64,000 nucleotides of DNA from Kineothrix sp. MB12-C1. Lineage in GTDB: Bacteria > Bacillota > Clostridia > Lachnospirales > Lachnospiraceae. The stretch covers positions 1,178,001 through 1,242,000 of the forward strand of contig NZ_CP132957.1 in assembly GCF_030863805.1 (NCBI RefSeq), given 5' to 3'. Positions 4,306 through 22,489 of the stretch are shown here, piece by piece. A program made the translations under genes and the position numbers. The notes under the pieces are model-generated. The model saw only the letters and a program-made list of their open reading frames with translations, did no database searches and had not been told where the DNA came from. Numbering within the stretch: position 1 is the first letter of the stretch; every line of letters begins with the position of its first letter.

Positions 4306-4333
4306 AACGTTCGCAATGCGAACGTTTTTTATT
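4306..4333 (+). terminator. Intrinsic terminator of ptb-buk
   Basis: A perfect stem AACGTTCGC/GCGAACGTT is followed at once by a run of six T. It begins 8 bp after the buk stop codon. Confidence 0.93.
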
Positions 4334-4384: not shown

Positions 4385-5788
4385 CTAAAATCGGAAATAG
4401 ATAAACGGATTAAATGACTCGCTTACAATGGTCATAATAGAAACGAGTGCTAAAAGCAAAAGCAATATCCCCTCCGCCGCCATATAAAGTGCCGGTTTTC
4501 TTTTTTGAAAACCATTAATCCATTTCGGTCTCGGTAACATTGCAAGCATCAGTCCGGCTGTTACTATCAATAAATTTCCCTGTATTTGAAGCTGCGATGC
4601 TGTTATTCCTCCGCTTCCGAATGTAATGCCGATAAACTTCAAAAGATGCAAGGCAATTTCTTTCATACTGTTACTTTCAAAAAGGAAAATTCCCCACCCG
4701 AACATATATGCCAAAAACGTTAAAAAACGCTTTGCAACATACGGAAGTTTTTCCAAATATTTTCCGTAAAAAAACTTTTCTCCGGTCAAAAGAATAAAAT
4801 AATAAACTCCCCAAAATGCATAATTCCAGTAAGCACCGTGCCAAAGTCCGGTCAAAAACCATACCACAAACAAGTTGAAAATATGGCGCCCCTTTGCCAC
4901 TCTGCTTCCGCCGAGCGGAATATAAACATAATCCCGGAAAAAAGAAGAAAGCGAAATATGCCATCTACGCCAAAATTCGGTTATGGAAGTGCTATGATAC
5001 GGTTTATCGAAATTCTCTAAAAAATGAAAGCCAAAAATACGTCCTATTCCGATTGCCATATCGGAATATCCCGAAAAGTCAAATAATATCTGTACTCCAA
5101 AAGAAAAGACCCATATCCAGGAAAGTCCCATACCAATCTCATGAGAAACCAGACCGCCAATAGCATCCGCCGCCATTCCTGCTTGGTTTGCCACAAGCAT
5201 TTTCTTTGCAAGTCCTATGATAAAACGTCTCATTCCTTCAAAACATCCATTCCAATCGGAAGTTCTGTTTTCTATCTGCTCTTCAATATCGATGTAACGC
5301 ACAATCGGTCCGGCAATCAGCTGCGGAAAGAAAAAAATGTAAAGCGTGAGATACGCAAGGTTCTTCTGACGTTTTACCTTTTCCCTGTACAAATCTACAA
5401 TATAAGTAATGACCTGAAAGGTATAAAATGAAATTCCTGCCGGTAATGCCAAACCTAAAAGCGGAATATGGATTCCCGGAATGCGGTTCGCATTGTCAAG
5501 GAAGAAGTCCGCATATTTAAAAACAGCAAGCGGAAGCAAATTTACAGCAATGGATAAAAACACTGCCCATTTTTTCCGTTGTTCCACCGATTTAGATAAT
5601 ATCCAGGTCAGTCCTACGCACAATAAAATTAAAAGTACATTTATCGGTTCACCCCATGCATAAAAAAAGACGGATGCCGCAAGCAATATTCCGTTCCTTG
5701 CCCCTTTCCATCTTTTCGGACAAAGAAAATACAGGAAAAGAACGGCGGGAAGAAAGAAAAGAACAAATGTTACTGTTGAAAATGTCAT
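4385..5788 (-). CDS. MBOAT-family O-acyltransferase (AlgI/WssH-like)
   Basis: A 467-residue polytopic membrane protein of the MBOAT family. These proteins move acyl groups, usually acetyl, across the membrane for O-acylation of extracytoplasmic polymers. The family signature is visible around residues 265-320: the EFWRRWHISLSSFFRDYVYIPLGG segment and the catalytic-His region TGLWHGAYWNYAFWG. It is the last gene of the exopolysaccharide operon and overlaps the upstream DHHW gene by an ATGA. By analogy to AlgI/AlgJ and WssH/WssI, it should pass acetyl groups to the DHHW proteins. DltB is an alternative homologue, but no dltACD genes are near. Ribosome site GAGGAGG. Confidence 0.92.
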   Translation of the reverse strand: MTFSTVTFVLFFLPAVLFLYFLCPKRWKGARNGILLAASVFFYAWGEPINVLLILLCVGLTWILSKSVEQRKKWAVFLSIAVNLLPLAVFKYADFFLDNANRIPGIHIPLLGLALPAGISFYTFQVITYIVDLYREKVKRQKNLAYLTLYIFFFPQLIAGPIVRYIDIEEQIENRTSDWNGCFEGMRRFIIGLAKKMLVANQAGMAADAIGGLVSHEIGMGLSWIWVFSFGVQILFDFSGYSDMAIGIGRIFGFHFLENFDKPYHSTSITEFWRRWHISLSSFFRDYVYIPLGGSRVAKGRHIFNLFVVWFLTGLWHGAYWNYAFWGVYYFILLTGEKFFYGKYLEKLPYVAKRFLTFLAYMFGWGIFLFESNSMKEIALHLLKFIGITFGSGGITASQLQIQGNLLIVTAGLMLAMLPRPKWINGFQKRKPALYMAAEGILLLLLALVSIMTIVSESFNPFIYFRF

Positions 5789-6996
5789 TTCACTTCCTCC
5801 TCTTTATTTAAAAAATAACCGCTCCATGCGTCTTGCTGTCCCATAAACAATACGGTATCAATCTCATTTTCCTGACATATTTTTTCTAAATCCACTTGCT
5901 TCAAAATACGAAAATTGACAAACACCGTTGTTTTAAAATGGGAAGAAAGCGGTTCCCTGATGACTCTTGCAAAAGAATCCCCGATGATTAGAAGATTATG
6001 CTCTCCGCTGTCATAGCGCAGCGTAATTACATCACTTTCAAAGCCGAAATAGTTTAAATATTGATCGAAGCCGATTTCTCTGTTTACGGCACCGTTATCA
6101 TACGATTTTTTCAGCCCGATATCCTGTTCTTTATTTCCAAACCAGGTCCTGTGCTGCGGAAGTATGTATTCATTTACCGTAAAAATATCCATATCCTCAT
6201 TTTCGACATTTCTTCCGCATTCACGCGCCCTGCTTCCAATCCACAAAAGATTTCCGTAATCCTGCTCTTTTAAGATACTTTTTGCCATTCCCATATCGTA
6301 ATCTTTACTCATCATATGTAAAATATCCGCATACCCAACAGCAGCTCCTATATGGTTCCAATGATGGTCCGTACGGTACATTCTGCTTTGATACTCGGAA
6401 AAATCCCTGAACTTCATCCGGTCAAAGCGTATGGTATCCTGCAAGGAACCTTTTAAAAGCTCATACCATGGATAGCTTTTAAGTCCCTCCACTTCATCAA
6501 ACCAGTTCAGATCCTCTGCTCTCGTACAATAATACACATATACCTGCATATCTGGATGTGCATTCGCAAAGTCATTTATTTCACCCGCTTTTTTCCGGTA
6601 AGCAGCTTCTGTTTCTTCCTCGTAGGAATAGGGAAGATTCATCAGCCACTCAGACTCATACATGCGGTATACCTTTCCGAAGGGCTCCAGTTCCTCTCGC
6701 AATCCTTTTCCGCGCAAAAAAGAGGAAATACGTTTTCCCGCTCCTTTTACTTTTGCATTCCAATCCGCATTCCATGCAACTGATCTGTCATATAGAATAA
6801 ACTGATCTTTTGCTGCCTGCTCAAATGAATCCTGAAAGTCTCCTTCTAAATAAGCGGAAAAAGAGAATGCAGGAAAAGAGGTCAATTCCTCCGCACCACT
6901 CATCGTTCTTTGCTCCGCAAGAAAATAGGCGGTACCAAATCCCAACAATATTATCATTCCGCTTATACAAAAAATTTGATAAATTCTTTTTTTCAT
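5785..6996 (-). CDS. DHHW-family protein, putative polysaccharide O-acetyltransferase partner
   Basis: The 403-residue protein has one N-terminal membrane anchor (about residues 5-23) and an extracytoplasmic SGNH-like domain. The family-defining motif is seen in TDHHWNHIGA near residue 215. An LLIIGDSFARV segment near residue 335 supplies the nucleophile-Ser block typical of AlgJ/AlgX-like acetyltransferases. The start at 6996 is chosen because it forms the ATGA overlap with the upstream gene; an ATG at 7006 is also possible. Between a paralogue and an MBOAT gene, it most likely places acetyl groups on the exported glycan. The acceptor is not known. Confidence 0.82.
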   Translation of the reverse strand: MKKRIYQIFCISGMIILLGFGTAYFLAEQRTMSGAEELTSFPAFSFSAYLEGDFQDSFEQAAKDQFILYDRSVAWNADWNAKVKGAGKRISSFLRGKGLREELEPFGKVYRMYESEWLMNLPYSYEEETEAAYRKKAGEINDFANAHPDMQVYVYYCTRAEDLNWFDEVEGLKSYPWYELLKGSLQDTIRFDRMKFRDFSEYQSRMYRTDHHWNHIGAAVGYADILHMMSKDYDMGMAKSILKEQDYGNLLWIGSRARECGRNVENEDMDIFTVNEYILPQHRTWFGNKEQDIGLKKSYDNGAVNREIGFDQYLNYFGFESDVITLRYDSGEHNLLIIGDSFARVIREPLSSHFKTTVFVNFRILKQVDLEKICQENEIDTVLFMGQQDAWSGYFLNKEEEVK

Positions 6997-8204
6997 TTTC
7001 CATACCATTCAAACATGGATTCCTGTCCCATGAAAATAATGCTCCCTATTTGTTCTTCCTCTATCAGCTGCTGGATGTCCATAGAACGGTACTGGAAATC
7101 ATCCAAAAAAACGGTACGGTTAAAATGAGATGCCAGTAATTTCCTCGAAGGCCGTCCCTGAGAGTCGGAAATCAACAGCAGATTAGGTTTATCCGGTTGA
7201 TAAAAATCAAACTCGACTACTTCCGCCTGACCTCCATAATATGAAAATTGATGGTCGAAATCCACATCCCGCACAATTTTTCCGTTCGCATACTCTTCTT
7301 CTAATCCAATTTTCGCTTTTTTGCCGCCTACATAAGAATCGTATTCGCCCAAATCAAACTGATATGTACGGAATACATCCAACTGTTCTTCCGTAAAGTC
7401 AAGGATCGCTCCTCCTTTTAATCTGGTGAATAAAAGATTGTCATAGTCATTTTCCGCTTCCGGTACGAAAAGAGGGGTAAGCTCCATATCCGCTTCCAGC
7501 ATTTGATAGATGTCTGTATAAACTTCATAAGACCCCCTGTTATTCACATGGAAATCGGTCTTATACCCCGTTTCCATATAATGTTTTACATCCTTAATCA
7601 CAAATTGTCCGGTGCGAATTTCCGTGTCCTCCCCTAACTGTTTTTCAAAATAATCGGCATAGGAAAACACCTTAATCTTATCCTGGGCATACCAGTCCAT
7701 ATCGGTAGCACGGTTAATAAAATAAGTATAAATCGGGATTTGCGGGTTTGCCGCCTTCAAAACATTCCACTTTTTTGCTGTCTGTTTCACGGCATTCTTA
7801 CTGTTCCCATTTTCTCTATTGGGCTCTGAAATAAGATAATCGGAATCTCCCAGAACATATTTTATATTTTCCCCATAAGTGACCTTAGTCAGCTTGATAT
7901 CCGTCACCCCTGCATAATCCGATTTCCCATCCGCTTCCGTTTGTGTTTCACCTGCTGGATTTCCTTGTGTTCCGCCTACCGCTTCCTTCCAGGAATTGGT
8001 CTTACTGTCCACTTTTTCTTCGGAATAGTCCTTCTTTTTCTTTTCATTCTCTACAAGCGGTGCATATGCTTCTAATACTTGTTCCTCCTCCGCTCTTTGT
8101 ATTGTTTCAACGCTGAAGGGTTCCTCAGCACCGCAGCCACCCGCCAAAAGCAAAACAAAAACTGCCCCCGCCGCTATTTTCATATTGGTTCTGAATTGTT
8201 TCAT
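6993..8204 (-). CDS. DHHW-like lipoprotein, paralogue of the next gene
   Basis: The start at 8204 follows AGAGGA and yields a type II signal peptide with lipobox LAGGC near residue 24, so it is predicted to be a membrane-anchored lipoprotein. A charged low-complexity stretch of about 80 residues follows. The SGNH/DHHW-like domain shares order and spacing with the downstream paralogue: YYFINRATDMDWY-type and LLLISDSQGRPSR segments. The DHHW motif is altered to DFHVNNRG, so one of the two His is replaced. It may be a binding or scaffold subunit rather than an active transferase. It overlaps the following gene by 4 bp. Confidence 0.75.
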   Translation of the reverse strand: MKQFRTNMKIAAGAVFVLLLAGGCGAEEPFSVETIQRAEEEQVLEAYAPLVENEKKKKDYSEEKVDSKTNSWKEAVGGTQGNPAGETQTEADGKSDYAGVTDIKLTKVTYGENIKYVLGDSDYLISEPNRENGNSKNAVKQTAKKWNVLKAANPQIPIYTYFINRATDMDWYAQDKIKVFSYADYFEKQLGEDTEIRTGQFVIKDVKHYMETGYKTDFHVNNRGSYEVYTDIYQMLEADMELTPLFVPEAENDYDNLLFTRLKGGAILDFTEEQLDVFRTYQFDLGEYDSYVGGKKAKIGLEEEYANGKIVRDVDFDHQFSYYGGQAEVVEFDFYQPDKPNLLLISDSQGRPSRKLLASHFNRTVFLDDFQYRSMDIQQLIEEEQIGSIIFMGQESMFEWYGK

Positions 8205-8253
8205 GATTTCCTCTATTCTAGCTTCTGCTTTCTCTGCTGATAACTGAGTTATA

Positions 8254-8841
8254 TTAGCAAAGCCCTGATTCCGTAATGTATACAGACTGCATTTCCTCCT
8301 GATATTTGCAATCCGCATCCAAAAGAATACGGAACGAAGAAAGCTCCGCCATAAGATTTCCGTCTTCCGTTAAAACCGTCGGCGCTTCCAACTTTACTTC
8401 TTTGTCGTTTACCAGCGCTTTGTCGCTTCCTTCGGTAAGAATAATTGTTTTTTCCATTTTTTCATCGACGATAGTGAGTGTATTCCCTTCCTGCGTACAG
8501 ACAAGGTCACGGCTGAAATATTCACAGATTTCAGCCATCGGAACCATTACTTTTTCTTCCGATTGGTAGGCGGATACCATAAGTTCCAAATAATTGCCGT
8601 TTAAATATACGGCAATTTCTGTTTCCTTTCCTTCTGCTTCTTCCTGTCCGTTATTTTCCGTGCTTATCGACTCCTGTGTCTTGCTCTGTGTTTCTACTTG
8701 AGGAGGTTCTATTACCTCTTTTTCTTCCTTTTTGCAAGCGGTCAATAAAAGCGTCAATAGGAGTATGGCGATGTATGTTATTCGTTGTGTTCGTTTTAGA
8801 GGAAGGGGTAGTATTCTTCGGTTGACTCTTTCTTGGCTCAT
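8254..8841 (-). CDS. Lipoprotein with copper-amine-oxidase-N-like (stalk) domain
   Basis: A 195-residue predicted lipoprotein with a long N-terminus and the lipobox LLTAC near residue 36. A KEEKEVIEPP-type charged linker follows. The C-terminal 110 residues have the pattern of the copper amine oxidase N1 domain (LNGNYLELMVSAYQ, then MVPMAEICEYF, then NTLTIVDEK), a small wall- or ligand-associated fold common in Firmicutes surface proteins. Its first 191 bp lie in another frame inside the end of the upstream gene. It is likely a surface accessory factor of the exopolysaccharide operon. No enzymatic motif is visible. Confidence 0.7.
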   Translation of the reverse strand: MSQERVNRRILPLPLKRTQRITYIAILLLTLLLTACKKEEKEVIEPPQVETQSKTQESISTENNGQEEAEGKETEIAVYLNGNYLELMVSAYQSEEKVMVPMAEICEYFSRDLVCTQEGNTLTIVDEKMEKTIILTEGSDKALVNDKEVKLEAPTVLTEDGNLMAELSSFRILLDADCKYQEEMQSVYITESGLC

Positions 8842-9829
8842 TCCTTCTCACTTCCTTTCTTTCTTCCTTGATTTCACTTTTGGTTTCCACTATAGTTTTG
8901 TCTTGAATTCCATTCCGGTCTTCAATATTAGGATTATTCGCTTCTGTTTCAGGCTCTTCTTCCCAAATCTCCGGTTGATATTCGCCAAGCCAAAGCTTTT
9001 TCTTGGCCTTATTTAAAAAAGTCAATGGCGTCATCATACTGCCGTCATAGGCCACCACAGTTCCTGAGATTTCCAAAGAAAAGCTTTTCTGCTTTGTCAG
9101 CTCGCTCAGCCCTGCCGATGCAACGCCTTCCTTGACATGTGCGATAACAATTTCAGCTGCCTCCGGCCTGCTAAAAAGCAGTGTCCCCCATATATACGGC
9201 TCGGTATCCACTATATATACTAAATCTTCTTTTCTTAAACTGTTTTTTATGGCATCGGAAATCTGCCCGATGGCCTTTTTCATATCTGTCGTTCCCAGCA
9301 GGCGGTTCAAATCTTCCTGATAGGTCAGCCTCCACAGTACCAGTTCCAATTCCATTTGATAACGGCGTGATATATTCATATAAACCGAAGCATCTCTTTC
9401 AAAACCGAGCAGATTATTCATTTGTGTCAATTCATCTATGGTAACGTATTTTTCTATTTGGCGTACCAGTTCTTTATTTTCTTCATCTAGTAAATGATGT
9501 TGTCTGACGTAAGAAGAAATTGCCACAATCGTCGCTACCGGCCAGAAAATCCAAAAATAGACATTGGCAGGAATTGCATTTCCCTTGTTAATGGTTTCAA
9601 ACACCGTCAGCGCAATCAACAAAAACACAAAAATAATATCCAGAATCAATCCGATCTTAATGGATGTAAAATAGGTAACCAAAAGCAATATGGTTACAAT
9701 ACATAGAATAATCATATTTGCCGCCAGATTCACATGGTCAAGGGAAATAAATAATACCGCAATAAAAAATAAAATTAAAACTGCTTGAAAAGAAAGATCG
9801 GAAAGAATAGAATGTCTCCTATTATTCAT
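8651..9829 (-). CDS. Membrane protein with degenerate GGDEF domain keeping the RxxD I-site
   Basis: Four N-terminal membrane segments (about residues 10-105) and a short coiled helix lead into a GGDEF-fold domain that begins at IDELTQMNN. The Asp residues for metal binding and the GGDEF signature are lost; DTEPY takes its place at about 208-212. The inhibitory-site motif RKED lies exactly five residues before it, as in active cyclases. This suggests a c-di-GMP receptor, not a cyclase. A disordered charged tail of about 100 residues follows and overlaps the next gene. The ATG at 9829 fits the AGGAGG site better than the one at 9838. Its paralogue is at 11914. Confidence 0.72.
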   Translation of the reverse strand: MNNRRHSILSDLSFQAVLILFFIAVLFISLDHVNLAANMIILCIVTILLLVTYFTSIKIGLILDIIFVFLLIALTVFETINKGNAIPANVYFWIFWPVATIVAISSYVRQHHLLDEENKELVRQIEKYVTIDELTQMNNLLGFERDASVYMNISRRYQMELELVLWRLTYQEDLNRLLGTTDMKKAIGQISDAIKNSLRKEDLVYIVDTEPYIWGTLLFSRPEAAEIVIAHVKEGVASAGLSELTKQKSFSLEISGTVVAYDGSMMTPLTFLNKAKKKLWLGEYQPEIWEEEPETEANNPNIEDRNGIQDKTIVETKSEIKEERKEVRRNEPRKSQPKNTTPSSKTNTTNNIHRHTPIDAFIDRLQKGRKRGNRTSSSRNTEQDTGVDKHGK

Positions 9830-9830
9830 C

Positions 9831-11891
9831 TTATTCATCCCTCCTATGCTTTATCCAAATCATAATTAACGAAAGAGTCATCAGCAATAAAACAGAACCT
9901 CCTATAATGAGCAGGGCAGCTATGCTACTCTGTCTTGTCATTTCAAATAAGAGAGAATATTGCTTTCCGTTATCCGGTCCAAAACGATGACAAGCGATAA
10001 GTTCCCCGTCCGTAACATATCCGTCTCCGAATATCTGCCAGTTTTTCTCAACACTTCCCAAATAATCGGCTGCTTTTGCCATTCCCTCTTTTGTTACCCC
10101 ACTCACTGCCAAAAGTGCATATTTATTAGCGCTGTACGGAGAATATAATAGCTGTGCCGTTCCTAAGGATGCACCGTAATTAGCTTCTATCTTCATCTTT
10201 TCGTTGGAACGGAGCGTCGTTCCTTCGGGACTGAACTGAAAATATAGTTGATTGTTAATCTGCTGTACAATGGGATTGTCCGAAAGGCATCCGATACTGA
10301 TTATATTAGATGCTGATAAATCTCCCATATTATCAGCTCTGCAAACTCTGATAGTTCCGGAATTATCCGTTTGATAACGTCCGAGGGTCAAAAGAATCTT
10401 CCGCATCGCATCCAACTCTTCTTTGCCTTCCTCCACCGGAAGAATAATAACGACCTGATTGAGCCTTCCCTCATAAATGAACGGACCGGGATAATAGTCG
10501 AACAGCAGCCACGGCACTTCCTCCGTCTTCAAACTTACCGTACTTTCATTGGTCACATAAGCCCAGGGCATTTCCTGCCTTCTAATATCACACATCAGAT
10601 CCTTCATTTCCAAATCAAAGGTAACACGCAGAGCAAAGTTTCCCGTAACCTGAAGGTCATCCGGTATGCTCACTTTCAAGACATCACCATTAGCACTGCT
10701 TTTCTCCAGCTTTTTACTTCCAATCGGAATATCGTCTATATAAACCGTAACCAGGGAACGGTCGAAATCCAAATTTTGAGCATATCGGAAATGGATTTCC
10801 GTCTCACTGCCCGCTGCAATACTTTTATTGGCATTCATCGGCACCGTAAAGAATGCCGTCTGAATAAAAGGTCCGCTTACATAACTGCCTGTCTGTGTCA
10901 ACAGGTAATGAACTTCAGGGAGCTGGAGGACATTGACATCTTCTTCTGCCGCCACTTTTCTCCAAACGGCCTTTGTCTGCTCCATATTGGACTTATTCCC
11001 AAACAAACGGCATGCATTCTGCATGGACGTTGTATCTTTTCCGGTCACTACTAAAAGATCGGTTCCTCCTTGCGTTTCTACAAATGCAATAATGGAACCC
11101 TTTTCTGCCGCTGCTTTTTGTTCTTCGCTGAGTAAAGACTTAATATTGCCGGGAAGTCTTCCGTATTCGCATACATATGCCCCATATCGGTAAGCCGACA
11201 TATCTTTTAATTCTTCTATCTCTACCAATGCCATTTTTTCATAATCCAAAATTGCATTAAGAGAAATTCCGGATAAAAGATACGCTGCCGATGTCAATTC
11301 ATTCTCCGTAGGGCCTTGCGGCAAAAATACCGCACTCTTTTCATTCTCCAACCCCTCTATGGATGTCATCTGCCGGTAAACATCCGCTACATTCCTGCAC
11401 ACAACAGTCGGCTTATAGGAAACGGAAACATGAGAATCCTCTCTGACCACCATCCAGCTTGCAGTAGAAATATCATCCTCGCACGGGTCATTTTCATTCG
11501 TACGGATATAGGATTCCATACGGATACTGTTCGCGCCTTCTGTAAGCAATCTTTTTGGAAGTGTTATGGTAAGCTCCTGTGTTTCGCCTGCTGTCAGCGG
11601 AATCTTCTGGGAGTAAATAGGCTCACTGTTTAAAGATACCGTAAAATCCGATACCTCTTGCCTTACCAAAGTCGTCGCCGTATAAATAATGGTTGCTTTG
11701 GCATCCTCAACTTCCCAGTCTCCCACCTGAAAATATTCTTCACAGGAGGCAAATAACCCCTTCAAATCATGGTCAGCAGAAAAGTTTTCTTCATGAAGTT
11801 GCATTTGTTCCTCTGCACTCACATTACCTGTTATGAGCAAACTCATAGCTGCAATAAGGGCAAAGGAGCAGATTATTTTTTTACTTATCAT
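9831..11891 (-). CDS. BcsB-like polysaccharide synthase subunit (second copy)
   Basis: A 686-residue exported protein. It has a signal peptide (about residues 1-25, ending near NVSAEE), a large extracellular region with two carbohydrate-binding-like/flavodoxin-like halves as in BcsB, and one C-terminal membrane helix (about residues 655-678) with a basic tail. The SVLLLMTLSLIMIWIKHRR end fits the BcsB anchor that packs against the synthase. The start at 11891 follows AGGAGA. Gene order repeats here: a BcsB-like gene followed by a degenerate GGDEF gene, twice. It is clearly a paralogue of 12759-14777. It should guide the nascent polymer at the outer face of the membrane. Confidence 0.78.
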   Translation of the reverse strand: MISKKIICSFALIAAMSLLITGNVSAEEQMQLHEENFSADHDLKGLFASCEEYFQVGDWEVEDAKATIIYTATTLVRQEVSDFTVSLNSEPIYSQKIPLTAGETQELTITLPKRLLTEGANSIRMESYIRTNENDPCEDDISTASWMVVREDSHVSVSYKPTVVCRNVADVYRQMTSIEGLENEKSAVFLPQGPTENELTSAAYLLSGISLNAILDYEKMALVEIEELKDMSAYRYGAYVCEYGRLPGNIKSLLSEEQKAAAEKGSIIAFVETQGGTDLLVVTGKDTTSMQNACRLFGNKSNMEQTKAVWRKVAAEEDVNVLQLPEVHYLLTQTGSYVSGPFIQTAFFTVPMNANKSIAAGSETEIHFRYAQNLDFDRSLVTVYIDDIPIGSKKLEKSSANGDVLKVSIPDDLQVTGNFALRVTFDLEMKDLMCDIRRQEMPWAYVTNESTVSLKTEEVPWLLFDYYPGPFIYEGRLNQVVIILPVEEGKEELDAMRKILLTLGRYQTDNSGTIRVCRADNMGDLSASNIISIGCLSDNPIVQQINNQLYFQFSPEGTTLRSNEKMKIEANYGASLGTAQLLYSPYSANKYALLAVSGVTKEGMAKAADYLGSVEKNWQIFGDGYVTDGELIACHRFGPDNGKQYSLLFEMTRQSSIAALLIIGGSVLLLMTLSLIMIWIKHRRDE

Positions 11892-11913
11892 TTTTTCTAT
11901 TCTCCTGCATTTT

Positions 11914-12762
11914 CTATACATCGTACTGAAGTTTATTCTTCGCCTTTTCAAGTGCCAAAAGAGGAGTATCTTCGTCTTCTTCAATAAAATGAACTCCGAC
12001 TCTGACATCCAGCCTCGGGGCATTTTTCCCCAATATTTCCGAAAAATCCATTTCCTGCATTTTTTCTTTAATGCGGGTTTTTAAAAGTTCTTCGCTATTT
12101 TCATTTGTCAAAAGAAGTATTCCCCATTCATAAGGATCTTTAGATAAAATATAAACAACGTCCTCTCTACGGAACGTATTCGCCATCACTTTCGAAAGTT
12201 CCGCTACGGTCTGTTCCATTCCCTTTTTCCCGATGATCCTTTTTAAATCATCCGCATAACGGAATTGCCAGACAATAAGCATAAAGCCTATCTTGTAACG
12301 CGCTGCTATTCTTTGGTAAACGGGAAATTCCATCTCATATGCCTGAATATTTTTTAATTCTGTCATATCGTCCACAATACTGAAATGCTGTGCCCATTTT
12401 CTCAATTTAATATTTTCTTCTTCAATCTGGAGCATATTTCGGAATATGGTATTAGATATCACCGTTAAAAGAGGAGTGACTATCACCCAAAAATAAAAAT
12501 CGGACTGAATCGGTATTCCATAAGAAAACTGTCTATATAAATACCATGAAAATCCTGCAAAAATAACAACAGTATTTAAAATCAGTCCGAAGGTAACCGC
12601 CGTAAAATGTGATATGATTAAAATGGCAAAAACAATACATAATGCTGCAACATTAAAAGAAACATTTTCCGAAAAGACAATAAATGCCACACAGACAAAA
12701 AGCATTACAAGTAGTATCATATATGCGATATCTGCTCCTAGCGATAATCTTTTATTTTTCAT
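11914..12762 (-). CDS. Membrane protein with degenerate GGDEF domain and RxxD I-site (first copy)
   Basis: The 282-residue protein has four N-terminal membrane helices (about residues 11-108), a linker helix and a GGDEF-like domain beginning at VDDMTELKN (129-138). The signature position reads SKDPY (207-211), and RRED (198-201) stands exactly five residues ahead of it, the geometry of the c-di-GMP inhibitory site. The metal-binding Asp pair is absent, so cyclase activity is unlikely. The four-helix membrane part plus inactive GGDEF recalls PelD and listerial PssE receptors. It overlaps the upstream BcsB-like gene by ATGA, pointing to coupled translation and a joint complex. Confidence 0.74.
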   Translation of the reverse strand: MKNKRLSLGADIAYMILLVMLFVCVAFIVFSENVSFNVAALCIVFAILIISHFTAVTFGLILNTVVIFAGFSWYLYRQFSYGIPIQSDFYFWVIVTPLLTVISNTIFRNMLQIEEENIKLRKWAQHFSIVDDMTELKNIQAYEMEFPVYQRIAARYKIGFMLIVWQFRYADDLKRIIGKKGMEQTVAELSKVMANTFRREDVVYILSKDPYEWGILLLTNENSEELLKTRIKEKMQEMDFSEILGKNAPRLDVRVGVHFIEEDEDTPLLALEKAKNKLQYDV

Positions 12763-14777: not shown

Positions 14778-14783
14778 AAAATA

Positions 14784-16040
14784 CTAGAACCTTTCTGTTT
14801 TGTACCATGTTGTTTCTTTTTTCTTTATTTTATCTTCCATAAATTTATAAAAACCATACGCTGCCACTGCCATCCACATCTTGGAATAAGTAAAATACAT
14901 CAACGCAATCATAAGGAGATTAGATACACTCATCTCACCTTTTTCCGTGGACAAGGTAACGAATGTTCCAATTATAAACAGAATAATTGCCATGCTCCAC
15001 AGTAAACCGCTAAATCCTGCCAAATTCAAATGGACCCAGCCTATTAATGTAAAAATCAAAACAGTATCTGAAATAATCAGCGCTGTCAGCAAGACAAAAT
15101 AAATGGATAAAAAATAACAAATGTCAAAGCGGACTTTTTTACCTTCCTTCTTGAATATCAAAGGAACATATTTCACCAATACATAAATATTCCCTTTTAC
15201 CCATCTGGTCCTTTGTTTAAACCAAACCGGTATCGTCTGCGGTTCCTGTTCCCATGTAACGGCCGCCGGAATAAATTTAATCCGGTATCCCATCATATAA
15301 ATACGAAAACTAATTTCCGTATCCTCCGCTACGGCTTTTACATCCCAACCTCCGATCGCCTCCACGATGCTTCTTCTTATAATGAAGTTGGTTCCCGGTA
15401 TGGTGCAAAGCCGGAAGAGTCTCCATCTTCCGGCCTGTGCCATCCACTGAAACGACAATGTCTCAATATTGATAAATCGGGTTAAAAGACTTGCGTCCCT
15501 GTTTCTGGTACGAAACTTTCCGATTACCGCTCCCAAATTATCGTCCAATACCAGTTCCTCCACTAGCAACCGCAAGGCATCCCGTTCCGGAGTATTGTCC
15601 GCATCATAAATAGCAATAAATTCACCCACACAACGCTGATAACCGATATTTAACGCATTTGATTTTCCTTTTCCCCCTGTCACAGCGTCCGTATTAATGA
15701 CCGTGAGATTTCTGTCCGGATTTTTCTTTTGTATCCGTTCCAATATATTCGCACTGTCATCGGATGAGTTATCATTGATGATAATAATTTCGTATCTGTC
15801 CATCGGATAACGGAAACGCAAAAGAGCTTCTACCGTCTGACCGATCACCTTCGCCTCATTATGCGCCGGTACCATGATGGATACAAAAGGTAGTTTTTCT
15901 TTCACAAGAGGTTCTCTTTCTTTTGCTTTCTCGCAGCTTAAATAGTATTGGTATCCTGCGATAATCAATACTATATTTACCATTAAAAGCAGCCATATCG
16001 AAACAATCGCTATTAAAACGATGATATTTGCAGTTATCAT
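14784..16040 (-). CDS. Processive family 2 glycosyltransferase (BcsA/PssC-like polysaccharide synthase)
   Basis: A 418-residue membrane glycosyltransferase that polymerises a sugar nucleotide and translocates the chain. It has one or two N-terminal helices and a GT-A domain with the processive D,D,D,QxxRW set: Asp in NDNSSDD near 90, DAD at 146-148, AED near 239-240 and QRTRW at 276-280. About four C-terminal helices follow. The hydrophobic segments and motif spacing match beta-1,4 cellulose, poly-GlcNAc and poly-ManNAc synthases. There is no PilZ domain, so c-di-GMP control, if any, must come from the degenerate GGDEF partners. The start at 16040 follows AGAGGA; upstream in-frame codons lack a ribosome site. 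Confidence 0.88.
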   Translation of the reverse strand: MITANIIVLIAIVSIWLLLMVNIVLIIAGYQYYLSCEKAKEREPLVKEKLPFVSIMVPAHNEAKVIGQTVEALLRFRYPMDRYEIIIINDNSSDDSANILERIQKKNPDRNLTVINTDAVTGGKGKSNALNIGYQRCVGEFIAIYDADNTPERDALRLLVEELVLDDNLGAVIGKFRTRNRDASLLTRFINIETLSFQWMAQAGRWRLFRLCTIPGTNFIIRRSIVEAIGGWDVKAVAEDTEISFRIYMMGYRIKFIPAAVTWEQEPQTIPVWFKQRTRWVKGNIYVLVKYVPLIFKKEGKKVRFDICYFLSIYFVLLTALIISDTVLIFTLIGWVHLNLAGFSGLLWSMAIILFIIGTFVTLSTEKGEMSVSNLLMIALMYFTYSKMWMAVAAYGFYKFMEDKIKKKETTWYKTERF

Positions 16041-16074
16041 GTATTTTCTTTCCTCTTTTATTTTATAGTTGTAT

Positions 16075-18810
16075 CTATCTAAAGAACTTACGCCGATACC
16101 ACTTCCGCCCAATCATTAAAAATATGCCCAATACCAATACGCTGGCTCCGACTACCACCAGCAGGAAGCGGTCGCTGGCATTAAAAAATAACTCAAACGC
16201 AACTTCTTCTTTTTCGCGATAGACAAAGTCTTCCGGAATCTCCTTTTCAAAATACAAATCTCTGACATCACTGTATTCTTTTTGTAAGTCGGTAAACGAT
16301 AGCCATTTTTGATTTAATTTGTCCAAACACAGATCGAATTCTTCTTCCGTCAAATCCGCTGTAACACCAAACATAGTATCAAAAGGCAACTCTCCGAAAT
16401 ACTTATTTTCGGAAGTAATTTGCTCCAATTCCTTCATGGAAAACTGATATGGTGTATTATCGATTGCTCTGAAATATATTTGTTCCTCCGTAAGTGCATT
16501 TTGAAAACGAAGCATCTTATCCGCAATAGGCTCTCGTTCCATCTCATCTTCCAATAATAAAGGCTCATGAATTAATATAGTACCTCCCCGGCTTTGCATA
16601 TAACGCAAAACTTGTGCAAATCTTAAAAACGCCGGATAATCCAGATTATCATAAATCGGCATGACACTGACAAGAAACGGAATTCCATTATTATTCAGCT
16701 TATCCGCCCAGACACAAAGCTTATTTAAATCCGAAAAAAAATATACTTCATCCAGCATAAAATATGTTTTTCCATTTTCTTTTATTCCCATTTGCCTTTT
16801 TAGCAAAGAACCTAAAAGTATTTTGGATACTGCATTATTATTATCATAAACAGGAACATAGAAATTTCCGTCCGTTGCCTGTACTGCAAACGGAACTTCA
16901 ATATCCTCTCCAATGAGAAGAGTCCCACTTTTTTTACCGGTTGTAGCGGTGAGGGCGGAAAATTCATCAAGAAAGGTTTTCTCTCCCTCATATCCATCAT
17001 AAGAAAAGCGAACCCCTTTCCTCCGGTATCTTGTCAACTCACTTTCCGGAACCTCGGTAAATTCAGCACCCATACAAATTGCCGGAATTCCTGCCGCTAA
17101 TATATCCTCATATGGTTTTGCCGTTGTAGCAATAACATAATCCGCATCTTTTAAACTATCCTTAGTGTAGCTGCTCTCCGCCAAAACAGTGACCTGCATC
17201 CCATACGCTCTTGCGAGCCCCGTTTCCACGCTCAAATCTTCTCCGTTTTTTCCGATAATTAGCATGTTATTTTCATTTTCTTCCGCTGCTCGTACCGGAA
17301 GGGAGAAGCTGCTTAGTATGAGCAAAAACAGTGCCGTAACAACTGTTTGCCTTCTTCTTTTTCTTATAAAATTAATAATCCCTTTGAAAAGATTGGCAGT
17401 AAAAGAAGCAAAGAGCGGTGCAAAGCAAATATAACTGATCAAATCGAAAGAAACATTGTACATAAAAATGTGCTTTGCCAGATCCGCGTCACCTGCGCCG
17501 ACAATAGATGTTCCTATTTGTATAACGCCCATGAGCATAGTGCATAGTATAATCTGAAGTTTTTTCTTGTCACGAAAGCTGATTCCACATGCGACAAGGA
17601 ACCATATCAAAACAAATCCTATTGTATTCGGAACAAGCTGCTTTTTCAAATCACTATATAACGTAAAAAACTGTGTCTGCTCTCCGGGAGACCTTCCCGC
17701 TTCCCTCTCATAATTCCCCTGTACCGCAGGACGTATCATATAACCGTTGGTTACCGCTTTATCCAGCATCATAATTAGCTCATTAGGATGTGTGACATAA
17801 TAAATGGAAACGGAAATAAATCCGTATTTACTATAAAAATCATCTATAAACTGCTGGCTTTCCACTTCCACTGCCGGATAACGCTCATAATAAATGGAAC
17901 TGTCCAAAATAGAATACTGTCTGTCTATACCGAATTCATCCAAAGCTTCCTCTGGATTCTCTGCCGTCATCAAAACTCCCCTCGCCATCGCATGGTATTG
18001 ATTGATCCATACAAAACTCTCCGGAATGATGAGATACATGACGATTCCGCATATCGCTGCTAAAACGGCACCGCCAGCCACAAATTTTCTTAAGAGCGTT
18101 CTCTCTTTCGGAAGGAAAAATACCATGCAGATAAAAAGAATAAATAATGGCAGCCCTTCTGTTGCGTTCTGCTGTTTCGTGAAAATTAATATAATACTGT
18201 TAACGAGAACAGAAAGAAATAAAAGTAATGGCGAATATCTTTTTTGTGTCATCAATAACGCGCTTGCAATCAAAATAAGGGTAGAAACATATACCAGACC
18301 TTCCGCGTAAAACGAATTAAAATAAGCCGTATATGCCGTATCCGCAAACATGACCACACCTATTACTGCAAGCAGCATTCCCTGAAACAGGCTTTTTCGA
18401 TAGGAAATATAGTCAATCAGCATAGCAATTCCGATTACTAATTCTACCAGTAAAAAAACAGATAAAAAACGAATGTCAAAAATTCCATTGTCGGAAGAAA
18501 ACAAATTGTTCAAAAAAACCGCCGTCTGAATATATAGGTTCTGACTGGAAAACATGTTATCTTCATTCTCATTATAATTTTGGTACAGACCGAATTTACT
18601 GCTGAAATAATTAAGATACTGATCGTCCTCATAACGGTCTAATTTATAAATCCCCTGACCGCTAATCGTTCTGTAAAAGTCTCCATTGTCTGCCATTCCA
18701 ATTAAAGGGTGTATCATTAAAACCATTATCATAATAGCCGTGCTCATTATGGCCGCCACCACGGGCGGTGACAGTATGGTCCGTCTTAAAAAGTGTCCGG
18801 CTTTTTTCAT
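16075..18810 (-). CDS. Large membrane protein: GT-C-like transferase region fused to a DUF2334 domain
   Basis: A 911-residue protein. The N-terminal half has about ten membrane helices with an early acidic loop (GMADNGDFYR) like polyprenyl-phosphate-dependent GT-C hexosyltransferases. The second half, after a membrane segment near residue 495, is extracytoplasmic and reads as a DUF2334 deacetylase-like fold (YFMLDEVYFF, VSVMPIYDN, GGTILIHEP). A final helix is near 885. With the GtrB-like gene in the same operon, it could add a hexose from an undecaprenyl carrier to the growing polymer. It overlaps the upstream gene by ATGA. The function is inferred from topology and context; I do not recognise the exact family. 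Confidence 0.62.
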   Translation of the reverse strand: MKKAGHFLRRTILSPPVVAAIMSTAIMIMVLMIHPLIGMADNGDFYRTISGQGIYKLDRYEDDQYLNYFSSKFGLYQNYNENEDNMFSSQNLYIQTAVFLNNLFSSDNGIFDIRFLSVFLLVELVIGIAMLIDYISYRKSLFQGMLLAVIGVVMFADTAYTAYFNSFYAEGLVYVSTLILIASALLMTQKRYSPLLLFLSVLVNSIILIFTKQQNATEGLPLFILFICMVFFLPKERTLLRKFVAGGAVLAAICGIVMYLIIPESFVWINQYHAMARGVLMTAENPEEALDEFGIDRQYSILDSSIYYERYPAVEVESQQFIDDFYSKYGFISVSIYYVTHPNELIMMLDKAVTNGYMIRPAVQGNYEREAGRSPGEQTQFFTLYSDLKKQLVPNTIGFVLIWFLVACGISFRDKKKLQIILCTMLMGVIQIGTSIVGAGDADLAKHIFMYNVSFDLISYICFAPLFASFTANLFKGIINFIRKRRRQTVVTALFLLILSSFSLPVRAAEENENNMLIIGKNGEDLSVETGLARAYGMQVTVLAESSYTKDSLKDADYVIATTAKPYEDILAAGIPAICMGAEFTEVPESELTRYRRKGVRFSYDGYEGEKTFLDEFSALTATTGKKSGTLLIGEDIEVPFAVQATDGNFYVPVYDNNNAVSKILLGSLLKRQMGIKENGKTYFMLDEVYFFSDLNKLCVWADKLNNNGIPFLVSVMPIYDNLDYPAFLRFAQVLRYMQSRGGTILIHEPLLLEDEMEREPIADKMLRFQNALTEEQIYFRAIDNTPYQFSMKELEQITSENKYFGELPFDTMFGVTADLTEEEFDLCLDKLNQKWLSFTDLQKEYSDVRDLYFEKEIPEDFVYREKEEVAFELFFNASDRFLLVVVGASVLVLGIFLMIGRKWYRRKFFR

Positions 18811-20399
18811 TCCGTCATCCTCTCATAATATTCATAAGCAAGTAGTGCCATCCCCTGATCAAATGAATAAATTCCGGTTCCGTCACTACCCCCGAATATT
18901 CCATAAAATTCATTCTCTGCATCTGCAATACGAAACTGCTCCATTTTATTAATTGCCTTTCCTGCGATATCCTCTCTTCCTTCTTCTAAGGCCGTCATCA
19001 CAATCAATGCATAAACCGACGTCGATTCATAATATCCATCTTCTGACGGACTTCCATCTATGTCATAAGCGGCATATACACATCCTTTTTCCAATTCATC
19101 CGCAATCCAATCCATTGCCGTATCCGGCAGTTCTCCCACTTCCGCCAAATGAAGAAGTGTTGTCATTGCTTCCGCCATATTTAATCTAGTTCCCTCATAT
19201 TTTTGTTTTGTATAATCATAATAACTGTAATACAGTGGAAATTTTTCACTTATTCTGCCGTTTTGTATCAAATCTAATGTATTTTCATAGACTTCCAAAT
19301 ATCGCTTATCATTTTTCTTCATCTGTTCCAGTGTGGCCATATCCCCGTAACATAAGGTAAAACGATCTGCCTTCTGTTCCATCTTAATATCATAGAAGTC
19401 AACAGGTCGCCCTTCTTCAGTATTATACAGAAAAACTGCATCTAAATACTGCTGATAAAATGCCAGGTTCTCCTCCTGCATTATTTCTGCTTTTTGAATA
19501 GCCCCGATAATACGCAAATCATCCACAAGTGCATTGACCGCCGTATCCGTCTTCTCCGAAATCACCCATGGCATAAACCCTTCGGGAAACATTTTTGACT
19601 TTGTATAAGTCCATAAGTGGTCAAACATTTCTTTATTCCCCGTGAGTGCCGCATACTCCATTAAAATCCCCTGGCTCTCGCTTAAAATATCCTCTCCGGA
19701 AGGAATGCTTTCCTCCGACGTCTTATAATTTGTCCTAATACCGCCTTCTTCTGTCATCAGCAACGGAAGTAGCTGTTTTGAATAAGTGAAAGCCTTACCG
19801 TCCTTTGCTTCTGAAATCATATTCTGAAGTTGCCTCTCAGTAGGTGTGCTTCCCTGAGACATAGCAATAATCCTTCCCTTATTATCCGTTACCAATAAGG
19901 TTGGTACCATATTCAATCCAATTTCCTTATATGCCTTGCGTTCTTTATCAAAAAGCGTTTTGGTTTGTACGTGCTTTTCCTCCAATATATGCAATGCCTT
20001 TTCCTTAGTTTCCTTCTCTCCATCCAATCTATCTACTGCAAAAAACCTTGCCCCCATACTTTTCGCCGTTTGAGCCAGTATATCCATTTTTTCTACACTT
20101 TCCTGACAGTAAGGGCAATAACTCGCCCAAAACAGAAATACGGAGATACCTTCTCCTTGTTTCAAGGGCGAGATCTCTTTTCCGTCTTCCTCCTCTAAAA
20201 CAATATCCGGCATTTTCTGGAACAAGTGAACGGCTTGATTTTCGTATACTGCTTTCTTACGCTCCTCTTTGCCGCTTTGTATTTCATTTTCAAACAAGGT
20301 GCGAAGCATAAAAAATAACAAAAATAATGCCATTGCTAAAAAGACAATGCTCACAATCCATATTCCGCTCTTTTTTGCCTTTCCTTGTTGATTTTTCAT
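18807..20399 (-). CDS. Membrane-anchored thioredoxin-like domain fused to a GH8-like glycosidase
   Basis: The 530-residue protein has one N-terminal anchor (about 14-34). A TlpA/thioredoxin-like domain with FWASYCPYC (CPYC at 95-98) and a cis-Pro region NMVPTLLV follows. From about residue 205 comes an (alpha/alpha)6 domain resembling GH8. There ILSESQG (Glu about 242) fits the GH8 acid and NALVDDLR (Asp about 294-295) the second acidic residue. GH8 enzymes such as BcsZ or listerial PssZ trim the polymer of their own synthase. Fusion with a thioredoxin domain is unusual. The ATG at 20399 overlaps the wecB stop by 4 bp. Anchored outside the membrane, it may edit the glycan and/or handle disulphides. 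Confidence 0.7.
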   Translation of the reverse strand: MKNQQGKAKKSGIWIVSIVFLAMALFLLFFMLRTLFENEIQSGKEERKKAVYENQAVHLFQKMPDIVLEEEDGKEISPLKQGEGISVFLFWASYCPYCQESVEKMDILAQTAKSMGARFFAVDRLDGEKETKEKALHILEEKHVQTKTLFDKERKAYKEIGLNMVPTLLVTDNKGRIIAMSQGSTPTERQLQNMISEAKDGKAFTYSKQLLPLLMTEEGGIRTNYKTSEESIPSGEDILSESQGILMEYAALTGNKEMFDHLWTYTKSKMFPEGFMPWVISEKTDTAVNALVDDLRIIGAIQKAEIMQEENLAFYQQYLDAVFLYNTEEGRPVDFYDIKMEQKADRFTLCYGDMATLEQMKKNDKRYLEVYENTLDLIQNGRISEKFPLYYSYYDYTKQKYEGTRLNMAEAMTTLLHLAEVGELPDTAMDWIADELEKGCVYAAYDIDGSPSEDGYYESTSVYALIVMTALEEGREDIAGKAINKMEQFRIADAENEFYGIFGGSDGTGIYSFDQGMALLAYEYYERMTE

Positions 20400-21514
20400 C
20401 CCAGTGTTTCCTGCCCCCATTTTCTTAGTGCTTCCACTATATAACAACTTGCTTTTCCGTCTCCATACGGGTTAACTGCCATTGCCATTTGTTCATACGC
20501 CGTTTTATTATGCAAAAGTACTTCCGTTTCTCTTACAATATCTTCCGTTTCCACACCTATAATCCTCACAGTTCCCGCTTGTACCGCTTCAGGCCGTTCC
20601 GTTTCTGTCCGAAGTACCAATACGGGTACACCGCAGGATGGTGCCTCTTCCTGAAGTCCGCCGGAATCGGTCAATACTAAATAGCTTCTTCTCATTAAAT
20701 TATGCATGTCTTGCACATCAAAAGGTTCTGTCAAGTAAACTCTTTCCTGGTTTTTTAAAATATTTTCTACCGTTTCCCTGACTGCCGGATTAGGATGTAC
20801 CGGATAAACAACATTCACATCTTTATTGTTCTTTACAATCTGCTTGACTGCCTCGCAAATCTGTTCCAAGGGCTTTCCGAGATTTTCACGTCTGTGTGCG
20901 GTCAATAAAATCCATCTGCCCTTCGTCAAATCCTTTGTTTTTAATAATTCATTCTGAAATTCGTAATTTTCTTTTAATGTTGTATGAAATGCATCCATAA
21001 CCGTATTGCCGGTTACGGTAATGCCTTCTGTAATACCTTCTTTTAATAAATTACTTTTATTATTTTCGGTGGGGGCAAAATGAAGTTCTGCAATCCTTGT
21101 CGTCAAAGTCCGGTTCATTTCTTCCGGGTAAGGAGAGAATTTATCGCCGGAACGAAGTCCTGCTTCCACATGTCCCACCGGAATCTTCTGATAAAATGCG
21201 GCAAGAGCTGCCACAAAGGACGTTGTTGTATCCCCATGAACCAATACAATCTCCGGTCGTTCTTTTATGAGGACATCCTCTATTCTCGTCAGGATATCTG
21301 CCGTAATCGTTGTCAGTGTCTGTTTCGGGCGCATAATGTCCAAATTATGATTTACCTTTATTTCAAATAATTCTAAAATCGGAATAAGCATTTCCCTGTG
21401 CTGTCCGCTTAAGCATACGATGCTTTCCATATCATGCTGTTTTTCAATTTCTTTTACAAGAGGGCACATCTTGATGGCTTCCGGTCTTGTTCCAAATACA
21501 CTCATTATTTTCAT
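20396..21514 (-). CDS. wecB: UDP-N-acetylglucosamine 2-epimerase (non-hydrolysing)
   Basis: Interconverts UDP-GlcNAc and UDP-ManNAc in the cytoplasm. The 372 residues have the family's usual length, with the N-terminal GTRPEAIK motif, the GHVEAGLRS segment near residue 110 and the C-terminal DSGGLQEEAP motif that binds UDP. A good AGGAGA site precedes the ATG. It lies second in the exopolysaccharide operon, between a GtrB-like transferase and the GH8 fusion gene. This suggests that the polymer, or a building block of it, contains N-acetylmannosamine rather than plain glucose. It could also serve teichoic acid linkage units, but no tag genes are near. Confidence 0.95.
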   Translation of the reverse strand: MKIMSVFGTRPEAIKMCPLVKEIEKQHDMESIVCLSGQHREMLIPILELFEIKVNHNLDIMRPKQTLTTITADILTRIEDVLIKERPEIVLVHGDTTTSFVAALAAFYQKIPVGHVEAGLRSGDKFSPYPEEMNRTLTTRIAELHFAPTENNKSNLLKEGITEGITVTGNTVMDAFHTTLKENYEFQNELLKTKDLTKGRWILLTAHRRENLGKPLEQICEAVKQIVKNNKDVNVVYPVHPNPAVRETVENILKNQERVYLTEPFDVQDMHNLMRRSYLVLTDSGGLQEEAPSCGVPVLVLRTETERPEAVQAGTVRIIGVETEDIVRETEVLLHNKTAYEQMAMAVNPYGDGKASCYIVEALRKWGQETLG

Positions 21515-21526
21515 TGCTGTTTTCTC

Positions 21527-22489
21527 CTAATCTATATTCGAGGATTTCTCGATAATATAGCGCGGTCTTCCTTTGCTTTCTAAATAAATTTTACCGACAT
21601 ACTCGCCTACAATACCTATTGAAAATAAAATCAATCCTCCAATTGCCCATATGGATACCATGAGAGTTGTCCATCCCACAATAGTTTCTCCTATGAAATG
21701 GCGGATAATACTGTAAATCAAAATTCCTATACTGACTAAAAAAATAAAAATACCTAAAAATGTTATTAACCGCAAAGGCTTTACACTTAACGAGGTAATC
21801 CCTTCCATGGCAAATATAAGCATCTTGCCAAACGGATATTTACTCTCACCTGCAAACCGTTTACTTCTGTCATAGTAAACAAAATCAGACGGATAGCCAA
21901 TCATCGGTATTATACCTCTTAAAAAAAGATTGACCTCTTTAAATTCGCTAAGCCCTTCAAGTGCCCTCCGGCTCATCAATCGATAATCGGCATGGTTAAA
22001 TATCAGATCGGAATACATAAATTTCATAAATTTATAATATCCTTCCGCCGTTACCCTCTTAAAAAAAGAATCGCTGTCCCGCTTTCTTCTCACTCCGTAG
22101 ACAATATCTATTCCTGCCAAAAACCGTTCTATCATCTCATCCATTGCATTAATATCATCTTGCAGATCCGCATCCATAGTAATCACCATATCCGCATGCT
22201 CTATCACTTCCATTAAGCCGGCAAGCAATGCATTTTGATGCCCCTTGTTGCGACTCAAACAAATTCCCCCGAATAAGGTGTCTTTTTGGGTCAACTGTTC
22301 AATCATATCCCATGTTTTATCTTTAGAGCCGTCATTTACAAAAACCACTTTACTGGCTGTTGAAATCTTATCTCGCTTTATCAAATCCTGCATTTTTATT
22401 TTCAGCCTTTCCGTTATCGTCGGAAATACGTCTTCTTCATTGTAACAAGGTATGACCACATATAATATATTCTTCATAAAATCATCCAT
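21527..22489 (-). CDS. GtrB/DPM1-like family 2 glycosyltransferase (polyprenyl-phosphate hexosyltransferase)
   Basis: A 320-residue GT2 enzyme with a cytosolic GT-A domain (PCYNEE near residue 15, FVNDGSKD, and DADLQDD near 105-110). Two C-terminal membrane helices (about 235-255 and 270-295) follow. The layout is that of bactoprenol glucosyltransferases, which load glucose or galactose onto undecaprenyl phosphate. The start at 22489 has GGAGG 7 nt upstream. It is the first gene of the long exopolysaccharide operon. The AT-rich 224-bp gap upstream (22490-22713) must carry the operon promoter, but I see only isolated TATAAT-like boxes without a convincing -35. It likely supplies the donor for side-chain addition by the 911-residue membrane protein. 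Confidence 0.87.
   Translation of the reverse strand: MDDFMKNILYVVIPCYNEEDVFPTITERLKIKMQDLIKRDKISTASKVVFVNDGSKDKTWDMIEQLTQKDTLFGGICLSRNKGHQNALLAGLMEVIEHADMVITMDADLQDDINAMDEMIERFLAGIDIVYGVRRKRDSDSFFKRVTAEGYYKFMKFMYSDLIFNHADYRLMSRRALEGLSEFKEVNLFLRGIIPMIGYPSDFVYYDRSKRFAGESKYPFGKMLIFAMEGITSLSVKPLRLITFLGIFIFLVSIGILIYSIIRHFIGETIVGWTTLMVSIWAIGGLILFSIGIVGEYVGKIYLESKGRPRYIIEKSSNID

Follow-up and report, generated by a model that had tools for sequence, protein, structure and literature searches.

A thirteen-gene operon of likely Pss/Yda type with a doubled BcsB-GGDEF pair in Kineothrix sp. MB12-C1

A 64,000-nucleotide stretch of Kineothrix sp. MB12-C1 (NZ_CP132957.1, positions 1,178,001 to 1,242,000; "the window") contains a polysaccharide-type operon of thirteen genes at 4385..22489. 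All thirteen open reading frames (ORFs), numbered here g01 to g13, lie on the minus strand, run from 22489 to 4385, and overlap or stand at most 12 bp apart, as a first-pass annotation of the window had described. We consider it likely that this is an exopolysaccharide operon of the Pss/Yda type, probably acquired as one block, and that it works by the mechanism laid out below. Direct observation covers its gene content and order, the similarity of its core to relatives, the motifs kept and lost in its proteins, and an empty site in congeneric genomes. The oddest feature of the operon is a doubled BcsB-GGDEF pair.

A scan of named genomes with the window's glycosyltransferase family 2 (GT2) synthase yielded 407 relatives, of which the best 80 loci were kept for gene-content counts. 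With 22 distinct loci from a second set of 23 (L and G numbers are our handles for loci and genomes), they form the 102 related loci referred to throughout. The best 80 come mostly from Paenibacillus, and also from Listeria, Cohnella, Acetobacterium, Gorillibacterium and Marasmitruncus. Their synthases were 63-71% identical to the window's own (g05, 14784..16112), those in the Listeria loci 68-71%. A GT2 ORF was present in 78 of the 80, BcsB and a g04-like gene in 79 each, GGDEF in 74 and a GH126-like gene in 68. The usual order in the Paenibacillus loci was GH126, WsfD, DUF2334, GT2, BcsB, GGDEF; in the same scan, the Listeria loci had WsfD-like, DUF2334, GT2, BcsB-like and GGDEF genes, without GH126 there. 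The GH126-like gene was on the opposite strand in the Acetobacterium loci and followed WsfD in the Marasmitruncus loci.

In our reading, the Listeria order would correspond to pssA-E, with PssA as the WsfD-like and PssB as the DUF2334 protein, judged from the order in other Listeria species; the available part of PMC4125290 assigns functions to PssC, PssD and PssE. The shared order and similarity suggest that g03-g07 are the Pss/Yda core, with PssA and PssB fused. The components found were a PssC-type GT2, WsfD and DUF2334 beside the synthase, a BcsB-like PssD, a degenerate GGDEF protein with RxxD, and a GH126 of the PssZ kind. The first-pass annotation had named Pss as a relative, missed ydaJKLMN of Bacillus subtilis, and taken the locus for a merger of Pss and Wss themes; its core is better described as a Pss/Yda operon with additions.

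That annotation had proposed a search for the same gene order across Lachnospiraceae; in the sampled genomes of the window's family, BcsB is rare. Counting the own genome each time, BcsB had matches in 4 of 299 genomes from the family, 1 of 16 from the genus, 10 of 392 from the order and 14 of 391 from the class, and the g06 protein had a match in 22 of 398 phylum genomes. Most surveyed loci from the window's family and class carry the GGDEF gene between WsfD and DUF2334, so that the window order is of the Listeria/Paenibacillus type. The synthases also group apart: in a quick tree, g05 was placed with Bacilli, Listeria, Marasmitruncus and Acetobacterium loci (SH-aLRT 99), outside the main Pss clade of the window's family.

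The synthase itself, PssC, is a predicted processive GT2 of 442 aa, for which an ATG at 16040 is the likelier start (preferred starts of g03, g05, g08 and g11 were judged from overlaps and signal peptides). It matched PF13641 at 115 bits, and its DAD, ED and QRTRW motifs were invariant in an alignment of four sequences. No Bcs-type PilZ domain was found among its 9 Pfam matches, and it scored 88 bits against the CelA model (cut-off 699).

The genes that follow the synthase form two BcsB-GGDEF pairs, g06-g07 and g08-g09. BcsB1 (g06, 12759..14777) and BcsB2 (g08, 9831..11894; ATG 11894 is likelier than the ORF opening at 12023) matched PF03170 with 143 and 128 bits. Neither a second intact BcsB nor a second GGDEF gene was found in the 102 other related loci; in L031 and L043, each with two BcsB ORFs, length and position point to a single split gene. 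In BcsB searches from genus to phylum level, only the own genome had two side-by-side BcsB ORFs. G241 has two on separate contigs; in G950, G1048, G1170 and G1304, two matches in frames of the same length are read as one gene each; and in G1307, the query is matched in complementary parts by two adjacent frames, one of them with a stop, which look like one broken gene. The first-pass annotation had correctly listed the second BcsB-like and second degenerate GGDEF genes and left their oddity unweighed. A recent duplication of the pair was considered and appears unlikely: BcsB1 and BcsB2 are 34% identical. Both copies grouped with the Marasmitruncus locus L060 and with L121 (100/97), not as sisters; constraining them together was not rejected (p 0.071), nor was constraining the GGDEF pair (p 0.27).

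The partners of the two BcsB proteins are PssE-like predicted receptors of cyclic di-GMP (c-di-GMP). GGDEF1 (g07, 11914..12762) and GGDEF2 (g09, 8651..9838, with a long basic low-complexity tail) scored 28.6 and 24 bits against PF00990 (cut-off 23.8). Both have lost the GGDEF motif and kept the RxxD I-site, as RRED and RKED, respectively. Among 98 GGDEF rows picked by best BLAST hit and length, the window's two included and L131 repeating L089, RxxD was kept in all 98 and GG[DE]EF in none. The GGDEF domain of Listeria PssE binds c-di-GMP with a Kd of 0.79 uM, and pssE is needed for exopolysaccharide (EPS), according to the part of PMC4125290 at hand; the RxxD of B. subtilis YdaK is needed for EPS, according to that of PMC5422440. 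By analogy, g07 and g09 may both be c-di-GMP receptors. The own genome has 22 GGDEF matches, g07 and g09 included, and 8 EAL matches, so that c-di-GMP is presumably available.

Sugar supply appears to be encoded in the operon. The g02 product (20396..21514) matched the WecB model TIGR00236 with 492 bits (cut-off 210), identifying it as a predicted UDP-GlcNAc 2-epimerase that would make UDP-N-acetylmannosamine (UDP-ManNAc). It was the only WecB match in its genome, making a ManNAc-containing polymer likely. WecB-like genes stood near 15 of the 102 related loci (7 of the best 80, 8 of the 22 from the second set), and this recurrent linkage favours the ManNAc reading in the wider family too. According to the available parts of PMC5422440 and PMC7479077, listerial Pss is a ManNAc-galactose (ManNAc-Gal) polymer. 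The g01 product (21527..22489), a GtrB/PgfS/ArnC-like GT2 with two C-terminal transmembrane segments by hydropathy, is a predicted undecaprenyl-phosphate hexosyltransferase; it matched PF00535 at 78 bits and the PgfS model NF047588 at 219 bits, under the cut-off of 500. By family name, g01 and the WsfD half of g04 would fit a hexose side-group pathway. The earlier proposal is supported as an inference: a polymer of the Pss-like kind, linked to c-di-GMP and related to ManNAc, that bears side groups and is probably O-acetylated. We also note PMT_2-like proteins between BcsB and the thioredoxin-GH126 gene in two Pss-type loci of the window's family, L008 (14330-16162; 28.5 bits, over the cut-off) and L011 (12300-14117; 21.1 bits, under it); they are perhaps second side-group enzymes.

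The g04 gene (16075..18810) appears to encode a PssA-PssB fusion. Its WsfD half, a predicted hexose transferase (about residues 1-470), matched NF051875 at 453 bits, over the cut-off, and its DUF2334 half (about 490-911) matched PF10096 at 29 bits (cut-off 26). In relatives, among them L060 and the Listeria loci, WsfD and DUF2334 are encoded by two separate genes. No g04-like ORF longer than 800 aa was found in the best 80 of 407 loci and one in the 23 of the second set (L009, 1049 aa, 22%); since L009 also has separate WsfD and DUF2334 genes, that ORF is an additional protein. The histidine motif HGYTH, which we take to bind metal, is absent from g04; two of 29 aligned rows have HGYTH and a third NGYTH. 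With this motif gone from the DUF2334 half, deacetylation by g04 is unlikely. A model of the C-terminal part (pLDDT 83) matched mostly glutamine-amidotransferase-like domains in Foldseek, with Agd3 at rank 3, heparan sulfate N-deacetylase at rank 17 and CE4 at rank 31; since query TM-scores were low (0.24-0.33), the description "deacetylase-like" for this half rests mainly on DUF2334. The DUF2334 genes of two distant Pss-like loci, L123 (12495-14177) and L125 (6633-8258), keep HGYTH, and the products of those loci may be deacetylated.

The g03 product (18807..20399; ATG 20399 is likelier than the ORF opening at 20447) is predicted to be a membrane-anchored thioredoxin fused to a glycosidase barrel, which had previously been annotated as GH8. 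The Redoxin family matched with 46 bits, the thioredoxin part is ResA-like, and a CPYC motif lies at residue 111 of the long ORF. The GH8 family PF01270 reached 17.8 bits, below its cut-off of 24, while the barrel matched 3REN with 141 bits and 6R2M, taken by us to be PssZ, with 65 bits; of the two GH126 structures compared, that of CPF_2247 was the nearer. In the alignment, the Glu (LSESQG) and Asp (VDDLRI) of g03 fall on the candidate catalytic residues of GH126, Glu84 and Asp136, at equal offset by hand count. The barrel is nearer to GH126 proteins than to GH8. Thioredoxin-GH126 fusions have already been described, and PssZ placed in GH126, in the available text of PMC7479077. GH126-like ORFs longer than 500 aa occurred in 9 of the 23 second-set loci and in none of the best 80, the extra length being confirmed as thioredoxin for L011 only. 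An ORF elsewhere in the window (36831-38261, plus strand) joins, by eye, a CcdA-like membrane part and a thioredoxin part; as a guess, it might be a reducing partner of extracytoplasmic thioredoxins such as that of g03.

The operon ends in a putative acetylation module. The g13 product (4385..5788) is an MBOAT protein (PF03062, 93 bits), AlgI/PatA/DltB-like and predicted to carry acyl groups across the membrane. It adjoins g12 (5785..7008), a DHHW/PatB1-like SGNH O-acetyltransferase by prediction, and g11 (6993..8318, start likely at about 8204), a probable lipoprotein with a lipobox-like LAGGC. The g11 and g12 products are paralogs (29% identity, 131.6 bits) that share the SGNH residues DxH and DS with its Ser. 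The first-pass annotation had called both DHHW proteins. The g12 product is PatB1-like by sequence (5V8E, 35 bits); for g11 the label needs repair, as its product is PatB1/AlgJ-like by the fold of a low-confidence model: Foldseek gave PatB1 at E 8e-11 and AlgJ at E 0.17, and as the mean pLDDT was 54, the PatB1 match rests on the better core. The MBOAT and the two SGNH proteins probably O-acetylate the polymer. No g11- or g12-like gene was found by BLAST in the 102 other loci and an MBOAT gene near the core only in L011, indicating that the acetylation tail is a rare addition. In L011 (15750-19807, G250), a Pss-type locus is followed by the MBOAT gene and one for an 850-aa protein; by eye, the start of this protein resembles SGNH proteins, and its laminin-G match falls slightly short of the cut-off. 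L010 of the same family (6223-14156, G241) holds a second kind of synthase locus, in which a GT2 gene with an MshEN domain and a BcsB-like gene are accompanied by an MBOAT gene on the other strand; it resembles the NfrB theme.

The following mechanism is inferred from these components, and so are all its chemical steps, the identity of the sugar, the acetylation, the binding of c-di-GMP and what each of the two BcsB-GGDEF pairs does. UDP-ManNAc would be made by WecB (g02) and polymerised by PssC (g05), which would extrude the chain through itself; ManNAc is proposed by analogy with listerial Pss. The BcsB-like proteins, one or both, would use their tail anchors to dock on the synthase and would guide the chain, and the two degenerate GGDEF proteins, in the membrane, would take up c-di-GMP at their I-sites and turn the synthase on. 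The g01 enzyme would charge undecaprenyl phosphate with a hexose, which the WsfD half of g04 would transfer outside as a side group. As its deacetylase histidines are gone, the DUF2334 half would probably bind or guide the chain. The MBOAT (g13) would pass acetyl groups to g11 and g12 for O-acetylation of the chain, which the thioredoxin-GH126 protein (g03) would trim.

Several points weigh against this interpretation. The GGDEF scores are only just over the cut-off and the DUF2334 score of g04 barely so; a very distant epimerase would have escaped the WecB search; and the prediction of listerial EPS make-up from sequence was deemed unreliable in 2014 in the part of PMC4125290 consulted. PssC also resembles synthases of poly-N-acetylglucosamine (PNAG) and of cellulose: its best NCBIfam model was PgaC/IcaA at 190 bits, far below the 422 cut-off, and its best solved relatives are chondroitin and cellulose synthases. 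The chain might then be N-acetylglucosamine (PNAG-like) or a glucan, with WecB serving side groups or another glycan. We regard this as improbable given the high identity to the synthases of Listeria loci, listerial Pss being stated to be ManNAc-Gal, the presence in the operon of the sole WecB match of the genome, and the presence of GH126. Doubts of a similar kind attach to the acetylation genes, as g12 scored 21 bits against DHHW (cut-off 25), g11 has no Pfam or NCBIfam match, and an MBOAT gene stands near only 1 of the 102 other cores. A PatB1 relative and an MBOAT could act on peptidoglycan or another glycan and only share the transcript with the Pss genes; PatB1 is the solved structure closest to g12, and g13 scored 151 bits against the DltB model (cut-off 375). 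That the module serves the wall in this way nevertheless has little probability in our view: four genes close one tight operon, three syntenic congeners lack the block that stands here between buk and the aldolase gene, and in L011, the other Pss-type locus with an MBOAT gene, that gene directly follows the thioredoxin-GH126 gene. The further MBOATs of the genome (seven matches, g13 included) count on both sides. We retain O-acetylation of the polymer as the probable role of the module.

A third alternative concerns the doubled pair, which might be redundant, BcsB1 being a decaying duplicate in an ordinary Pss system. BcsB1 is indeed the divergent copy. Of the 64 alignment columns that are conserved across 90% or more of 101 other rows, it keeps 47 and BcsB2 keeps 60. 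It also lacks 20 residues at BcsB2 586-605 and sits on a longer branch (1.52 vs 0.88); BcsB2, the copy nearer to PssD of relatives, was the best match of the BcsB ORFs of all surveyed loci except L122. On the other hand, the BcsB1 frame is open over 672 codons with its N-terminal signal-like and C-terminal transmembrane segments kept, BcsB1 directly follows the synthase in the place of PssD in relatives, and the neighbouring GGDEF1 keeps its I-site. Redundancy is a possible explanation that we do not favour. In the available part of PMC11470070, E. coli BcsB forms a hexamer via FD1-FD2 contacts, one tail anchor docking BcsA, and a BcsA:BcsB ratio of 1:1 is noted for two other species. From its position near the C-terminus, the stretch lost from BcsB1 would lie in FD2. 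Very tentatively, and as a rather unlikely possibility in its specific form, both pairs could be functional and unequal: the two BcsB proteins would form a crown around one synthase, with BcsB1, lacking the FD2-region stretch, capping or starting it, and each having its own c-di-GMP receptor for graded or two-input control. The hexamer precedent for such a crown is E. coli Bcs and not a Pss system.

The operon was probably acquired as one block. No BcsB match was found in the 15 other congeneric genomes searched (12 of the 16 in the genus sample, own included, had a completeness of 90% or more and a contamination of 5% or less). Of eight regions around buk that were compared, L191-L193 keep synteny and have buk beside the aldolase or mtnA genes, and thus an empty site. 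The buk-aldolase gap is 35 bp in L192 and 47 bp in L193, compared with 18.4 kb in the window; in L191 no aldolase ORF was called and an antisense ORF is listed in its place. L196 and L198 have another gene before mtnA, L197 has the same kind of gene before the region ends, and buk is in another context in L194 and L195. Loss of the operon in all sampled congeners, rather than gain, is a possible alternative. Direct repeats of at least 18 nt were not found at the block ends, nor was a tRNA found in the 64-kb window, and G+C content (40.1% in the operon, 41.7% in the rest of the window) gave no strong foreign signal. We nevertheless regard acquisition as one block as the probable origin.

The remaining gene, g10 (8254..8841), encodes a predicted lipoprotein with a copper-amine-oxidase-N ("stalk") domain (PF07833, 55.5 bits) and a lipobox-like LLTAC. 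Its signal peptide and lipobox-like site are coded within the 3' end of g09 in another frame, and the resulting 191-bp overlap (8651-8841) is unusually long for a bacterial gene pair. A terminator-like hairpin with a 10-pair stem (4305..4327) lies between the operon end and buk and is the longest of 26 found in a scan, for which shuffles expect 14.4 sites. A promoter scan gave 48 sites compared with 51 in shuffles, and no c-di-GMP riboswitch or other Rfam RNA was found in the window at gathering scores. The translation of an ORF at 55090-55821 (minus strand) shows, by eye, Gly-x-y repeats like those of collagen, along with a C-terminal domain.

The locus shows a Pss system that is present in an anaerobe as a single block, together with a UDP-ManNAc supply of its own and genes that probably serve acetylation. 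In Pss-type loci, the synthase is PNAG-like, BcsB is of the cellulose type and the c-di-GMP receptor is a membrane protein. With one synthase and two receptor-BcsB pairs, this natural locus makes the action of PssE-type receptors on the synthase testable. In agreement with the first-pass annotation, which knew of no described locus with the full set, none was found among the matches listed in the open-access literature, nor one with two BcsB-PssE pairs, subscription papers being mostly outside its scope; parts of the theme are in print for Clostridioides difficile and Achromobacter, precedents for the acetylation that the annotation had missed. In the NGR pathway, sensing is by a domain of NfrB rather than by a separate receptor. 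The NfrA/NfrB/WecB proteins of this E. coli pathway resemble the window in making a c-di-GMP-dependent surface glycan fed by WecB, and the Achromobacter nfrA-nfrB-wecB cluster in having a BcsB homologue and periplasmic O-acetyltransferases; both differ in being Gram-negative systems with an outer-membrane NfrA, and ManNAc is a proposal of the authors (available part of PMC8669472).

Among clostridial systems, ccsZABHI of C. difficile is likewise a synthase locus, in which ccsHI is an MBOAT/DHHW pair, and a second BcsA/B-like locus has WecB and a proposed ManNAc-rich product (PMC7710045, as available). The ccs locus differs in that CcsA has PilZ and is read as making cellulose, CcsZ is a GH5 enzyme, and CcsB is called analogous and not homologous to BcsB; the second locus has GH113 and a deacetylase. 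B. subtilis ydaJKLMN, the polymer of which is not fully defined in the accessible parts of PMC5422440 and PMC13274460, shares a glycosidase gene, the I-site receptor YdaK and the export/synthesis proteins YdaLMN; the operon as described there has five genes and one receptor and lacks WecB, a second BcsB and genes for acetylation. Closest is pssA-E with pssZ of Listeria monocytogenes (PMC4125290, in the part available), given the core order in Listeria loci, the 68-71% synthase identity, and a PssZ that is GH126 like the g03 barrel. Compared with it, the window has PssA and PssB fused, PssD and PssE doubled and GH126 joined to thioredoxin, and its operon adds WecB, a GtrB-like GT2, a stalk lipoprotein and MBOAT-SGNH genes.

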